A DNA stretch of 64,000 nucleotides from Jonesiaceae bacterium BS-20. GTDB lineage: Bacteria; Actinomycetota; Actinomycetes; Actinomycetales; Cellulomonadaceae. Under the pieces are notes generated by a model that did no database searches, was not told the origin of the DNA, and worked only from the letters and a program-made list of their open reading frames with translations. Location: the NCBI GenBank assembly GCA_039995105.1, contig CP146203.1:2666001-2730000 (forward strand). Direction: 5' to 3'. Shown here one piece after another: positions 26,751 through 33,947 of the stretch (position 1 is the stretch's first letter; the number at the start of each line of letters is the position of its first letter). The position numbers and the translations under genes were made by a program.

Positions 26751-27011
26751 GATGGTCTCCTCAACTTAGGTGAGGCTGGTACCCCATGCAGGCACAGTTA
26801 ACCCCACAATTCCAGTATCAACCACATGCCCCCACCGCGCACCGATCCCGGACTAGAAACTTGGCGGCGGGCGTCCTCCACCCAAATTCCCGCAAACTAT
26901 GGCAGTATCTCTCATACCCAGCGCAGGGTACTTAACAAGTCATGCTCATACGGCCATTCTCGGCGTAGGTACGGGCTTTCACAGTGAGCATCGTGATGAT
27001 TGGAGCTCGTT

Positions 27012-28478
27012 TTGTCCCAAAGTCCCCAAGTTTCCAACCCCAAAACCACATCCTCTAACAAGGCGGTGTGGATTGCTTTAATCACGGCGATCATCTTAGT
27101 GATTGCCGGAACCACCATCTTTGCGCTACGTGACCTGTCCGCCCAGCGCGCGGAACAGCCGGGCACACAAACCGCCACTGAGCCTGTTGCCCAAGATCCC
27201 CCCAAAGAAATGGACACCGCCACCTCCTCCCCTACCCCGGAGCCCATCCCACTAGATCCTGGGGTAGTGCGCGGGTGGGGCAATAACACCTTGGGAGAGC
27301 TGGGGGACGGCACCTCATCTAAGCGTGGTGGTGTGGTCGCGGCTGAGGGATTGACCAATGTGCACAGTGTTTTTCCAATAGCCAGGTCCACCTTCGCAGT
27401 CCTAACGGACGGGACCGTGTACGGGTGGGGGTTTAACGAGCGCGGTGAGTTGGGAGACGGAACCACGGAAGGCAGAACCCTACCCGCCCCCATCGAAGGC
27501 CTTGAGGATGTAGTTTCTATCCACGGCGCGTGGCAGTCCATTCTTGCCCTCCACCAAGATGGCACCATCTCCGCGTGGGGTTACAACCAAAACGGCGAAC
27601 TGGGCAATGGCACAACTGACCCAAACCCACAGCCGGCCAAAGTTCCCGGTGTCAAAGACGTTAAGCTCCTTGAGGTCACCGGCCACGGAGCAGTCCTTGC
27701 GGTCCTGACGGACGGCACCGTTATGGCGTGGGGATCAAACATCACCGGTCAGCTCGGGGACGGCATGACCAGCGATATTCACACACCGGCCCCCATCCAA
27801 CACCTCAAGAGTGTCCAAGCCATTTATTCAAGCGGCAGTGCAGTCTACGCGGTCTTAATGAATGGCACGGTCATGTCCTGGGGCGATGCTTCCGACGGAG
27901 CGTTGGGAGATCGAGATAGCGACTTTGGGTACTACCCAGCCACAATCAGCGGTCTCGAAGACGTGTCCAAAGTGGTGGCAGCACAAAATGCTGCGTTCGC
28001 TATTCTGCAAGATGGCACCGTCATGGCTTGGGGATCAAACAAGGGCGGCCGCCTTGGTACGGGCACGGATATTGCGCACAGTGACAAACCCGTTGCTGTC
28101 AAGAGTGTTGCAGGCGCAGTGGACCTATACCTTACGGACAAGGCCAATACCGTATTTGTCCTGCTCGAAGATGGCACCCTCATAGCCTGGGGTGCCAATA
28201 ACAATGGGCAGTTGGGTGACGGTTCAACAACGAATCGGTCCACCCCTGAGGCTATCGCCGGCGTGAGCGGCGTCAAGGAGCTTTGGCCAATCTCCCGGGC
28301 TACCTTCGCACTCCTTGAGGACGGCACCATGATGGTGTGGGGTGACAAGAGGGACGGCAAGATTGGCAAAGCCGCCACGGGCGATCCGTCGCTTCCCGTG
28401 CCCTTTGGCGATGTTGAGAATGGAGAGGCTCTCTTTGGTTCGTTGAAGACGGCATTTGTGGTCCTCACCGAGGGGTGA
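27012..28478 (+). CDS. Membrane-anchored RCC1-repeat propeller protein
   Basis: The 488-residue protein has a short cytoplasmic N-terminus, one membrane helix (about residues 20-39), a Pro/Thr/Glu linker, and then eight repeats of the RCC1 type. Each repeat contains a motif like WGxNxxGELGDGT followed by a VLTDGTVxxWG strand. RCC1 repeats fold as a seven-bladed beta-propeller used for protein binding. With the anchor it should face the outside of the cell. I chose TTG 27012 (GGAG six bases upstream); an in-frame TTG at 27000 has none. It stands alone, divergent from the VOC gene. No binding partner can be read from context. Confidence 0.88.
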   Translation: MSQSPQVSNPKTTSSNKAVWIALITAIILVIAGTTIFALRDLSAQRAEQPGTQTATEPVAQDPPKEMDTATSSPTPEPIPLDPGVVRGWGNNTLGELGDGTSSKRGGVVAAEGLTNVHSVFPIARSTFAVLTDGTVYGWGFNERGELGDGTTEGRTLPAPIEGLEDVVSIHGAWQSILALHQDGTISAWGYNQNGELGNGTTDPNPQPAKVPGVKDVKLLEVTGHGAVLAVLTDGTVMAWGSNITGQLGDGMTSDIHTPAPIQHLKSVQAIYSSGSAVYAVLMNGTVMSWGDASDGALGDRDSDFGYYPATISGLEDVSKVVAAQNAAFAILQDGTVMAWGSNKGGRLGTGTDIAHSDKPVAVKSVAGAVDLYLTDKANTVFVLLEDGTLIAWGANNNGQLGDGSTTNRSTPEAIAGVSGVKELWPISRATFALLEDGTMMVWGDKRDGKIGKAATGDPSLPVPFGDVENGEALFGSLKTAFVVLTEG

Positions 28479-29348: not shown

Positions 29349-29367
29349 TCGGAAGTGAGCCTCCAAG

Positions 29368-29651
29368 ATGCGTACAACAAAGCAACTGAGCATTACCCTC
29401 CCAACAACATGGCAGAGGCGTTGAAAGAGCGTGTTGCTTCCGGTGCCTACGCCAGTGAGAGCGAAGTTATCCGTGAGGGCTTGCGAGCACTATTTACACA
29501 AGAAGAGGCTGTTGAGCAATGGCTACGCACCGAGGTGGTCGCTTCGGTTGAGGCTATGCGAGCCAATCCGTCACGGGCAATCAGTTCCAAAGATATGAGG
29601 ACGTACCTCGCGAGCCTGAGAGCCAAATATGATGCTGAGAATGACTTGTGA
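29368..29651 (+). pseudogene. ParD-like antitoxin, frameshifted and orphan
   Basis: From ATG 29368 the first residues read MRTTKQLSITLP, the normal ribbon strand of a ParD/CopG-type antitoxin. The rest continues in a different frame: NNMAEALKERVASGAYASES, then EVIREGLRALF. One base is missing in the CCC run at 29400-29402; a fourth C would restore a 94-residue protein. As written, the only continuous frame starts at a GTG (29355) and carries an unrelated N-terminus. No ParE-type toxin follows, because the next gene is on the opposite strand 32 bases away. It looks like a relic of a toxin-antitoxin pair, or an error in the sequence. Confidence 0.8.
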
Positions 29652-31384: not shown

Positions 31385-32023
31385 ATGCGCCTACATGTTG
31401 CCGATCACCCGTTGATTTCCCACAAGCTAGCCGTGCTGCGAAACAAGGAGACCTCCTCTCCTATCTTCCGCCAGCTCGTTGATGAGCTGGTTACCCTGCT
31501 CGCCTATGAGGCTACGCGGGAGGTCCGCACTGTTGAGCACCCAATTTCCACTCCGGTCATGCAAACCATGGGCACCAAGATTGCCAAGCCGGCGCCGCTT
31601 GTAGTCCCAATTCTACGTGCGGGGTTGGGCATGCTCGACGGTCTCATGCGTCTGATCCCAACCGCCGAGGTGGGCTTCCTTGGCATGGTTCGCAACGATG
31701 ACACCCTTGAGGTTGTTACCTACGCCAACCGGTTGCCTGAGGATCTCACCGGACGCCAGGTGTTCCTCTTGGACCCCATGCTGGCTACCGGCAACACCCT
31801 GATCGCTGCCATCGACTTTGTCCTTGAGCGCGGCGCAAGCGACGTCACCGTTGTCTGCCTGATTGCGGCCCCAGAGGGCCTCAAGGTTTTGGAAGAGTAC
31901 GTGGGCGACCGTGCACAGGTCAAGGTCGTTTTGGCGGCCGTGGATGAGCGTCTCAATGAGCAGTCCTACATTGTGCCGGGACTTGGCGATGCCGGTGATC
32001 GGCTTTACGGGATCGTTGACTGA
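31385..32023 (+). CDS. upp: Uracil phosphoribosyltransferase
   Basis: The 212-residue protein is a full-length Upp, which makes UMP from uracil and PRPP in pyrimidine salvage. The PRPP loop [10 protein letters not shown] is at 130-139, and the uracil-binding end ([12 protein letters not shown]) is intact. It is divergent from tadA and ends before a strong terminator. A TACGGT element ends eight bases before the ATG, so the transcript may be nearly leaderless; no ribosome site beyond AGGG is seen. Confidence 0.96.
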
Positions 32024-32076
32024 GCCGTTTTTATTGCGTCACATACTGAGACGCGAACAAATACTGAGATAGCGTG

Positions 32077-32109
32077 AAGGGCTAGAAACATTGGTTTCTA
32101 GCCCTTTTT
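32077..32109 (+). terminator. Intrinsic terminator of upp
   Basis: A 13-bp stem (32077-32089 with 32094-32106) and a 4-base loop end in a run of five T. Confidence 0.93.
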
Positions 32110-32160
32110 GCTGTTATTTAGGTAATATCTGGGCATTTTACGTTCGCTCATAGGTTGAGA

Positions 32161-32172
32161 ATATTCGAATAT
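32161..32172. promoter_or_regulatory. 12-bp palindrome upstream of Cys-rich leader
   Basis: ATATTCGAATAT is a perfect palindrome 39 bases before the leader peptide. A TTGAGT possible -35 element follows at 32183. It may be an operator, but the evidence is position and symmetry only. Confidence 0.35.
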
Positions 32173-32210
32173 CCCTTGGGCTTTGAGTAACAAGGTGTCA
32201 GTGTGGGATC

Positions 32211-32309
32211 ATGCGCAAACTGGAATTAACGAGCCCCGCCTTGATGGCGCGCTTTGTTATGCCCACCGATCGCATGGCCATGTGTATGTGTGCTTGTTGT
32301 AGTAACTGA
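32211..32309 (+). CDS. Cysteine-rich leader peptide (32 aa)
   Basis: A short frame from ATG 32211 encodes 32 residues. The last eight include four cysteines and end CMCACCSN. It sits 67 bases upstream of a winged-helix regulator, in the position of an attenuator leader. Cysteine-rich leader peptides in actinobacteria, shown experimentally in mycobacteria, control downstream genes according to cysteine supply when ribosomes stall at Cys codons. Here all four are TGT. A GGGA lies close before the ATG, so it may have a weak ribosome site. Alternatively the frame is chance; the clustering of cysteines at the end argues otherwise. Confidence 0.6.
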   Translation: MRKLELTSPALMARFVMPTDRMAMCMCACCSN

Positions 32310-32376
32310 CCTACTTCCTCAGTTCCCTAGCACACCCCGGTTCAAATGATGAACCACCAAATTCTTTGGAGTACAC

Positions 32377-33156
32377 ATGTCTACTCAAACCCAGTCACCT
32401 GCCAGTCCCGCCGCTCAAGAAGTTAGCAATCAAACCGGATTCTACTTGTGGGTTGGGGTTGATCCTGCCCGCACCCCTGCGGGGTCCGAGCCCGTTGGTT
32501 CCAGCCAGATCATTGAAATAGCGGAAGCGCTTGGGGAACTCGTACGAGAGCTCCTACCATCTGCGGAGACACACACCACGTTGTCACTTTCCGCCCTGGA
32601 TTCCGTTTTACAGCAGGGCGGAAAAGCCCCCTACATCGCTCCGGTCCAGTCCCGGCAGCCGGATTCGAATCTAGGGGCCGCCCAAGAACGTCTTGCTCAC
32701 GACCCCAACGCTCAGCGCGCACCCGGTCCGCGCAGCGCCCAAGAATCAGCGCAGCCCACCCGATCACATGAACCCCCTCAGCACCCCCAACCGAAGCCGC
32801 AATCTAGCCTGCCAAACTTCGATTTTGCATTGCGCCCACGGGTCACCATTGACTTACACACCCGCCAGGTCATTGCCGATGACGAAATGCAGCGACTCAC
32901 GTACAAGGAATTTGAGCTCCTCGCTCACCTAGTCACGGCCAATGGGGTCGTCGTTTCCCGTGAAGAACTCTTCGCCACGGTCTGGGCGGGTGAACCCTCC
33001 CAAGACTCACGGACGATCGATGTTCACGTGCGCCGACTGCGGGAAAAACTGGGGTTAGACAACCACATTGTGACCGTTCGGGGCCGCGGCTATAAATTTG
33101 CTGTGACCGATCAGATCGACGTAATTGGGGTCACCGCTCACCGAGAACTTTCTTAG
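32377..33156 (+). CDS. Winged-helix regulator without receiver domain
   Basis: The 259-residue protein ends in an OmpR/PhoB-type winged helix (about residues 150-250): RLTYKEFELLAHLV, the recognition region SRTIDVHVRRLREKLG and the wing VRGRGYKF. There is no phospho-acceptor receiver. The N-terminal 75 residues form a small domain of unknown type (FYLWVGVDPARTP, then a helix EIAEALGELVRELL). A Pro/Gln/Ser-rich linker of about 65 residues joins the two. It follows a Cys-rich leader peptide and precedes a phosphotransferase-like gene by 32 bases. A sulphur- or cysteine-responsive role is an inference from the leader only. Confidence 0.8.
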   Translation: MSTQTQSPASPAAQEVSNQTGFYLWVGVDPARTPAGSEPVGSSQIIEIAEALGELVRELLPSAETHTTLSLSALDSVLQQGGKAPYIAPVQSRQPDSNLGAAQERLAHDPNAQRAPGPRSAQESAQPTRSHEPPQHPQPKPQSSLPNFDFALRPRVTIDLHTRQVIADDEMQRLTYKEFELLAHLVTANGVVVSREELFATVWAGEPSQDSRTIDVHVRRLREKLGLDNHIVTVRGRGYKFAVTDQIDVIGVTAHRELS

Positions 33157-33188
33157 ACCTCAGCGTAGGCTCTGGTTAGGGAGGCATC

Positions 33189-33947
33189 ATGAACACTACT
33201 TGGGAACAGGGAAGCGAACTGCCCGAGCTGAAAGAGTCTAATCTACTGGCTCAGGGCAGTCATGCTCGGGTCTATTTACTAGGCGACCAGGTGGTGGTGC
33301 GGCGTCTCAAAAATTATCAGGGCACTTACCCCAATGCGGACCTTATGAGCCATCTCAAACAGTTAGGTTTTCCTACCCCAACCCTGTTTGAAGCCCGGCA
33401 AGACACATTGATTATGGAACGGTTGCACGGTCCCACGCTGCTGCAATCACTGATTGCGCAAGAAATATCCTTAGCGGAAGCCGTCCGCATCATGGTTCAA
33501 CTTCATGAGCGACTCCATGGCCTGCAGCCCCCAGACTCGGCCTCCACCAACAACCAACTTGGGGACCAAGGCCGGATACTCCACATGGATATCCACCCCG
33601 GCACCATCGTTTTGACACCCACCGGACCATACTTGGTCGACTGGGAAGACTCTCGTTTGGGTCCGCCGGAGTTAGACCTCGCGGCAACCGCTTTGATATT
33701 TGCCATGATCGCCTCGGAACCTGGAGAACTCCAAGACGGCGCGGCATCGATGTTCCGGAAATTCAGCCGCACGGTGGGCACCGGATTTGTGCCCTACCTT
33801 GAAGCAGCGGCGCGGGTGCGGGCACAGGAGATGGACACTTCACCCGAGGAACTGGCCCTCATTCAGCCGGGGCTGCAATGGGCCCACGCTCACCTGCAGG
33901 AGTTCCCAGGATGGTGCGTGCCTACTCGTCCGGAGTCCACACAATAA
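33189..33947 (+). CDS. APH-family phosphotransferase-like protein
   Basis: The 252-residue protein resembles the aminoglycoside/choline kinase fold. It has a small N-lobe and a catalytic-loop motif HMDIHPGTI, with His 132 and Asp 134. The metal-binding aspartate is in LVDWEDSRLGPPELDLA (Asp 151). The Asn that normally follows in HxDxxPxN is Thr 139, so catalysis may be altered. Many actinobacteria carry such small APH-like proteins of unknown substrate. GGGAGG before ATG 33189 is a good ribosome site. It probably shares a transcript with the winged-helix gene and overlaps the convergent hspR by 26 bases. Confidence 0.75.
   Translation: MNTTWEQGSELPELKESNLLAQGSHARVYLLGDQVVVRRLKNYQGTYPNADLMSHLKQLGFPTPTLFEARQDTLIMERLHGPTLLQSLIAQEISLAEAVRIMVQLHERLHGLQPPDSASTNNQLGDQGRILHMDIHPGTIVLTPTGPYLVDWEDSRLGPPELDLAATALIFAMIASEPGELQDGAASMFRKFSRTVGTGFVPYLEAAARVRAQEMDTSPEELALIQPGLQWAHAHLQEFPGWCVPTRPESTQ

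Follow-up and report, generated by a model that had tools for sequence, protein, structure and literature searches.

The stretch of DNA analysed here, hereafter the window, comprises 64,000 nucleotides of the Jonesiaceae bacterium BS-20 genome. Downstream of an upp-like gene (31385-32023), a short frame rich in cysteine codons is followed by the gene of a winged-helix regulator and by a gene for a protein with an APH fold. The features of the region are listed below; the families compared are labelled f1 (that of the window), f6, f7 and f19.

32076-32107, forward strand: terminator-like hairpin with a T run, 3' of the upp-like gene (two such hairpins in the region, against a mean of 1.0 in shuffles).
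32147-32163, forward strand: operator-like inverted repeat CTCATAGGTTGAGAATA, a motif common to f1/f6 regulator and metY promoters.
32170-32210, forward strand: candidate promoter CCCTTGGGCTTTG..GGTGTCAGTGT, like the promoter of the metY leader.
32211-32309, forward strand: Cys-rich leader peptide frame, 32 codons, with four TGT codons near the stop.
32279-32295, forward strand: Met/Cys codon segment of the leader, CATGTGTATGTGTGCTT, with predicted pairing to 32328-32335 and to the regulator start (32371-32379).
32304-32324, forward strand: small hairpin AACTGA/TCAGTT, overlapping the leader stop.
32377-33156, forward strand: receiver-less winged-helix regulator, 259 amino acids.
33189-33947, forward strand: APH-fold protein, 252 amino acids (PF01636 APH, 47 bits, cut-off 23.2).

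The leader frame translates as MRKLELTSPALMARFVMPTDRMAMCMCACCSN and ends in CMCACCSN, with 67 bases between its stop and the regulator ATG (32377); the sequence-only reading had described precisely this arrangement. All four cysteine codons are TGT. When short frames were counted in the window (12-75 codons, both strands), this was the only one of 1342 with four cysteines in its last nine codons, and five others carried three. As in polycysteine leader attenuators, the cysteine codons cluster near the stop of a frame that lies upstream of a gene and is co-oriented with it. With NCBIfam leader models, the peptide of the window gave no match, and eight other leaders gave no relevant match.

The terminator-like hairpin after the upp-like gene would part the leader transcript from upstream transcription, and for this reason the leader probably has a promoter of its own. 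A scan for the sigma-70 consensus found none before the leader in the window. Leaders of family f19 show a promoter-like spacing (TTGACA-N17-CATAAT, then ATG), and the start codon of the window's leader may likewise lie at or near the start of the transcript. The operator-like repeat scores 12.9 with a matrix from f1/f6 regulator promoters and ranks only fourth across the 64 kb window; hence this matrix alone is not specific.

The regulator is made of an N-terminal domain (around residues 17-73), a linker rich in proline and glutamine, and an OmpR-type DNA-binding domain (residues 173-241; PF00486, 83 bits). No receiver domain (PF00072) was listed up to E = 1, so the protein is considered a receiver-less regulator and not a response regulator. 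Response regulators of the OmpR/PhoB family share the PF00486 domain (43% identity in the case of GlnR from S. erythraea, 8hml) but possess a receiver, whose place is taken here by the short N-terminal domain. Pfam gave no match above cut-off for the latter, in agreement with its earlier description as an orphan domain joined to an OmpR-type DNA-binding domain. The domain is beta-alpha-beta-like, and a PDB profile search yielded designed coiled coils and weak matches only. Structure prediction placed one helix in it (mean pLDDT of the regulator model, 72.5) and led to no fold assignment; the top Foldseek matches shown are OmpR-type DNA-binding domains or proteins that contain one.

An APH-like gene does follow the regulator, as previously noted. 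Its inclusion in a unit with the regulator could not, however, be maintained: among 86 loci, its protein cluster occurs only at the locus of the window and at L070, where it is not adjacent to the regulator. We therefore discarded the gene as part of a conserved unit and regard it as a mere neighbour. The best NCBIfam match of its product, a thiamine-kinase model, is far below cut-off, and drug resistance is not implied. Elsewhere in the window, on the forward strand, lie a 98-amino acid frame which we take to be a ParD-like antitoxin (29355-29651) and a 492-amino acid protein with repeated WG..GELG units, presumably RCC1-like (27000-28478). No tRNA-Cys gene was found near the leader, and the window has a tRNA-Ser only.

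A sample of 297 genomes of the order was searched with a profile of the N-terminal domain, built from 10 sequences, and 83 of them had a match. With four further regions of the same family, 87 regions were collected, and our own HMM search confirmed the domain in 86, L147 being the sole exception. To ask how often a cysteine-rich frame lies upstream we used an unfitted test on 85 loci (L122, at a contig end, was left out). Frames with at least two cysteines in the last eight codons were found upstream of the regulator in 62 of the 85 loci, against a shuffle mean of 9.7 and 22 on the reverse strand. Raising the threshold to at least three left 38 loci (shuffle mean 0.5; reverse strand 11), and to at least four, five loci (shuffle mean 0.0; reverse strand 6). 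Individual leaders were also assigned, and at least two cysteines in the last 14 codons were present in 56 of 86 loci and in 20 of 29 genera; five assigned leaders have one cysteine. As the assignment used patterns picked after inspection of the sequences, the unfitted test is the fairer of the two. The 30 loci without an assigned leader of at least two cysteines include those of g60 (four loci), g100 (two) and g20 (six), and in g31 such loci are 10 of 23. Hence the leader and its cysteine codons are kept upstream of orthologous regulators, in a manner that is not universal; their absence there, which the sequence-only reading had named as its refutation, was not what we observed. Leader endings differ among families: CVCCPA, CVCCQA, ACCRS and CCCR in f1, CCRMHA or CCRMQA in f6, MCMPCVRCR and kin in f7, and MCCRMCR in f19.

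Several loci depart from the common layout. In g20 (L081, L091, L123, L137, L140, L141), g6 (L138) and g9 (L142), a short protein has the N-terminal domain without the DNA-binding domain, so that the N-terminal domain alone seems to have been kept; the upstream frame retains a single cysteine in g20 (RCPA, ACYRS and the like) and two in L138 (TCCRS). A single-protein scan of named genomes detected five relatives that match only in the DNA-binding part. At L165 (Actinomyces sp. B33), where only that part is related, an upstream short frame ends, as judged by eye, in RVCD; at L166 (Schaalia georgiae), of the same kind, the ending is SRMCM. In L008 and L147 (genome G034) a diverged regulator, with no match to the N-terminal profile, stands behind a Met-rich frame, MMCSMMMMCMMMRMMRRQPSL. 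At L070 and L063, a gene for a small Cys-rich protein (cluster 45) is found near the regulator.

Codon usage in the leaders was then compared with that of the remaining genes at these loci. Over the final 10 codons of the leaders, the TGT/TGC counts were 26/7 in f1 (26/232 in the other genes), 21/9 in f6 (56/213), 15/21 in f7 (43/209) and 37/24 in f19 (93/473). The rare TGT codon is thus favoured in the leaders of all four families.

Signs of RNA structure around the cysteine codons were also seen, and they differ among families. In f7, a hairpin of 12 pairs begins at the last base of a Cys codon, with 89.9% of cells paired in 21 sequences, the same ones from which the structure was picked by eye; two other f7 leaders, L086 and L087, do not have the hairpin motif and were not included. 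Both sides have changed in ten cells of the hairpin, a count that averages 3.0 in shuffles and is reached by 0 of 500, and four pairs show both-side changes, a number of pairs that, taken alone, was reached by 94 of 500 shuffles. The sequence CGAATG lies directly 3' of the Cys codons in 15 of 15 f6 leaders and 20 of 20 f19 leaders. Its complement CATTCG appears downstream of 12 of the 15 f6 leaders, where 1.29 are expected, and of 8 of the 20 f19 leaders, where 2.29 are expected. RNAalifold gave for f6 a weak consensus of only six weak pairs, and Rfam nothing beyond a chance match. In the window, the predicted fold has an MFE of -33 (z = -2.89), equalled by 3 of 200 shuffles, and pairs the Met/Cys codon stretch with AGCACAC and with the regulator start. 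Direct pairing of the leader with the start region of the regulator was not above shuffles in any of the four families; we therefore treat this element of the fold as a weak detail. The scan of the window detected no intrinsic terminator between leader and regulator, and classical transcription attenuation was dropped on this account.

The above observations bear on two alternative explanations. One is that the frame 32211-32309 arose by chance and is not translated, a scenario for which one may invoke the abundance of short frames in the window and the outcome of the sigma-70 scan. Conservation, codon bias and structure all point the other way, and we consider it very improbable. The other admits translation and regards the peptide as a small Cys-rich protein or as an arrest peptide that responds to metals or redox state, not as a sensor of charged tRNA-Cys. 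Other bacteria have copper-responsive upstream frames that contain Cys motifs, and endings of the CxCxxCC kind could bind metals. However, conservation between families is confined to the Cys codons near the stop and does not extend to the body of the peptide; the rare TGT codon is favoured; the bases that follow the Cys codons are conserved and have complements in the RNA downstream; and some leaders have a single cysteine. A metal or redox peptide is, on balance, improbable, and a leader that would sense cysteine or Cys-tRNA is the likely reading.

The sequence-only reading had proposed that the unit regulates sulphur or redox genes, and we searched for its targets in the promoters of relatives. 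A motif, TGTGACGAAnTATGACGA, was learnt from 31 f7/f19 regulator promoters alone, with one site per sequence forced, so that some sites are poor. For the sulphur genes, 17 regions were considered, of which L161 and L164, without a sulphite-reductase signature, were left out; the short signature identified 15 sulphite-reductase genes, seven in f1 and eight in f6, f7 and f19. In all eight promoters of the latter group the motif fit beats all but 0-10 of 498 control windows. No convincing fit was found for TGTGACGAAnTATGACGA in the f1 sulphite-reductase promoters; there, the f1/f6 motif reaches the top 5% of random windows in four of seven. As judged from these matches, the motif of regulator promoters appears also in sulphur-gene promoters, with the exception of most f1 sulphite-reductase promoters.

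The f1 sulphite-reductase operons have Cys-rich leaders of their own in six of seven cases (L148, L149, L150, L155, L157 and L163; for example MTTAARPALVTPRHEMPARVHTCLSCCR), L154 having none. In L149, L150 and L157 an inverted repeat, GTGAC..GTCACG, lies inside the coding part of the leader. At both L159 and L160 the motif region is overlapped by a frame that has two or more cysteines, and this frame was not counted as a leader.

Whole-genome pattern matches were also counted, with up to three mismatches allowed and the reversed pattern as control. Genome G134 has 15 matches against 0 for the control, and the best one is the regulator's own promoter. Those outside predicted genes include this promoter, two genes for PF01053 Cys/Met enzymes, an intergenic site flanked by ferredoxin and oxidoreductase genes and close to the sulphite-reductase operon, the gene of a family-5 solute-binding protein and one unrelated gene. 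In G235 there are 11 matches against five, and in G147 13 against one. Both sets contain the regulator, together with metY- and metB-like genes in G235 and a metY-like gene in G147. We assigned the names metY and metB from the sequences; Pfam gives PF01053 only, for the two G134 proteins. Among the matches listed for pattern GTCTCANNNNTGAGAC in 25 genomes, counts exceed the reversed control in many genomes, not in all, and this pattern was set aside.

A third explanation must be weighed here. The leader might attenuate the regulator while a different sulphur transcription factor binds the shared motif and controls both the regulator and the sulphur genes, the regulator itself acting elsewhere. 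The architecture of the motif can be read both ways. OmpR-type domains usually bind head-to-tail sites, and an inverted repeat such as the f1/f6 form is less usual; furthermore, the motif of the f6 regulator promoters is not that of the f6 sulphite-reductase promoters, and most of the former are poorly described by the f7/f19 motif. In contrast, the f7/f19 form is a direct repeat, TGAC-N6-TGAC, with the 10-bp period expected for OmpR-type domains. The best G134 match in the regulator's own promoter, and a regulator gene that directly precedes a sulphate-transporter gene in genus g142 (see below), also disfavour a different factor, which we deem unlikely. In f6 loci such as L067, L071 and L077, GTTACTTG / GTTACGTTG are repeated about 20 bases apart upstream of the leader, and a TGTGA..TCACA-like palindrome is also found upstream of it.

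The window's own genome offers a candidate target. No PF01507 match (CysH/CysD type) was found in it, while 16 of 25 tested genomes have one; in the window itself no sulphur-assimilation gene is adjacent to the regulator, as had been pointed out. The genome has three strong PF01053 genes, and one of them stands out:

G000:C1:124953-126227, minus strand: metY-like gene.

This gene is preceded by a short leader, ATGAGCAAGCGAATGTGTTGTTACTAA, which reads MSKRMCCY. Its promoter contains TCCAACATTTGAGATTT, to which the matrix built on f1/f6 regulator promoters gives 13.5 bits, a score reached by 3 of 581 control windows over all loci. In the nearest relatives, the metY leaders and scores are MNKRMCC and 12.1 (G012) and MTKRMCC and 11.1 (G016); all 112 f1 control windows stay below 11.1. 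A promoter-like stretch, CCCTT(T)GGGCTTTG..GGTGTCAG, is common to the metY leader and the leader of the window, and codons GCAAGCGAA of the metY leader are faced by TTCGCTTGC further downstream. Neither the motif nor a Cys leader was found at the other two PF01053 genes (L230, L236).

This genome was also searched with patterns. Pattern CTCANNNNTGAGAWT was rejected since its spacer is wrong. The operator pattern with a five-base spacer has five matches, of which only that of the regulator is near a plausible target. With YYCAHNNNNTGAGAWTW, derived from the regulator and metY sites, both of these sites were recovered together with two more, the first in a small frame and the second ahead of an rpoA-like gene, the control giving two.

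It is in another order that the regulator, a known type of leader and sulphur are most directly tied. When the class was searched, 30 of 394 genomes gave a match with E no higher than 1e-6, and the three that lie outside the order all belong to genus g142. In the three g142 loci (L256-L258), a frame ending in RRAVDLMRVASQLC(R/H) precedes the regulator and a similar gene for a solute-binding lipoprotein directly follows it. The L257 lipoprotein passes the TIGR00971 sulphate-binding model (176.4, cut-off 155.5), and the leader peptide encoded before the L257 regulator passes NF042934, 'putative leader peptide' (29.7, cut-off 27); this peptide also resembles Ms5788A, below the cut-off of that model. 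Together with the motif at sulphite-reductase operons and at metY- and metB-like genes, this adjacency lends good comparative support, short of proof, to a role of the regulator in sulphur metabolism.

Leaders of this kind have precedents, which we summarize from the portions of the sources that were accessible. In 2005, runs of Cys codons were predicted in leaders of cys operons of Mycobacterium and P. acnes, and of cbs of B. longum (Seliverstov et al. 2005, PMC1262725). Those leaders share with ours the run near the stop and the absence of an intrinsic terminator; the accessible portion reports conserved hairpins as absent, in contrast with the f7 hairpin that starts from a Cys codon. Mycobacterial polycysteine leaders were first noted, with ribosome profiling, in 2015 (PMC4633059), and Cys leaders were tested in M. 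smegmatis by Canestrari et al. 2020 (as cited in PMC9094748 and PMC13236596). The Ms5788A and Ms4527A leaders resemble that of the window in their Cys codons near the stop and in their co-oriented position before the controlled gene. The mycobacterial leaders are leaderless, and the start codon of the window's frame may lie at or near the transcript start; however, Ms5788A and Ms4527A control operons of cysteine and sulphur metabolism, while the frame studied here precedes a transcription factor with an orphan domain. In Streptomyces lividans, metL (MSTTSDRTPATEATTTPGARCMCRRMCAF; PMC8079986) is a leaderless Met/Cys-rich peptide before sulphur amino-acid genes; it differs in that it controls a transporter operon, metNIQ, and the source interprets it, in the part available, as rich in methionine and threonine. 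In the open literature, which mostly leaves out subscription papers, no Cys leader on a transcription factor was found.

Altogether, we favour, with a probability of roughly 0.7, the view that the region contains a cysteine-responsive leader, an attenuator, before a transcription factor of sulphur amino-acid metabolism. Transcription would start at or near the ATG of the leader. If Cys-tRNA is ample, the ribosome would pass the rare TGT codons and depart; the leader codons would then pair with downstream RNA, and little regulator would be made. If Cys-tRNA is scarce, the ribosome would stall on the TGT codons, pairing would be blocked and the regulator would be translated. The regulator would act in trans, probably as an activator, by binding the motif in its own promoter and in those of sulphur genes: the metY-like gene in the window's genome, and sulphite-reductase and metY/metB-like genes in relatives. 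Since some of the targets carry a Cys leader of their own, cysteine would act at two levels.

A broader and more tentative proposal, which we put forward as a possibility with the odds somewhat against it, is that these receiver-less regulators constitute a master switch of sulphur metabolism. The regulator and several of its targets (metY, and sulphite reductase in f1) would each have a cysteine leader, forming a feed-forward loop with two-tier sensing of cysteine by the ribosome, and the new N-terminal domain might be a second sensor. Cysteine leaders are known on metabolic operons; on a transcription factor, such a leader would spread a local ribosome stall to distant genes. This would explain how sulphur amino-acid genes can be tied to cysteine in genomes without sulphate assimilation, like that of the window. 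An orphan domain that occurs in 83 of the 297 genomes sampled within the order, and in a single genus of another, would also gain a function, and the proposal names candidate promoters at which the regulator may act.
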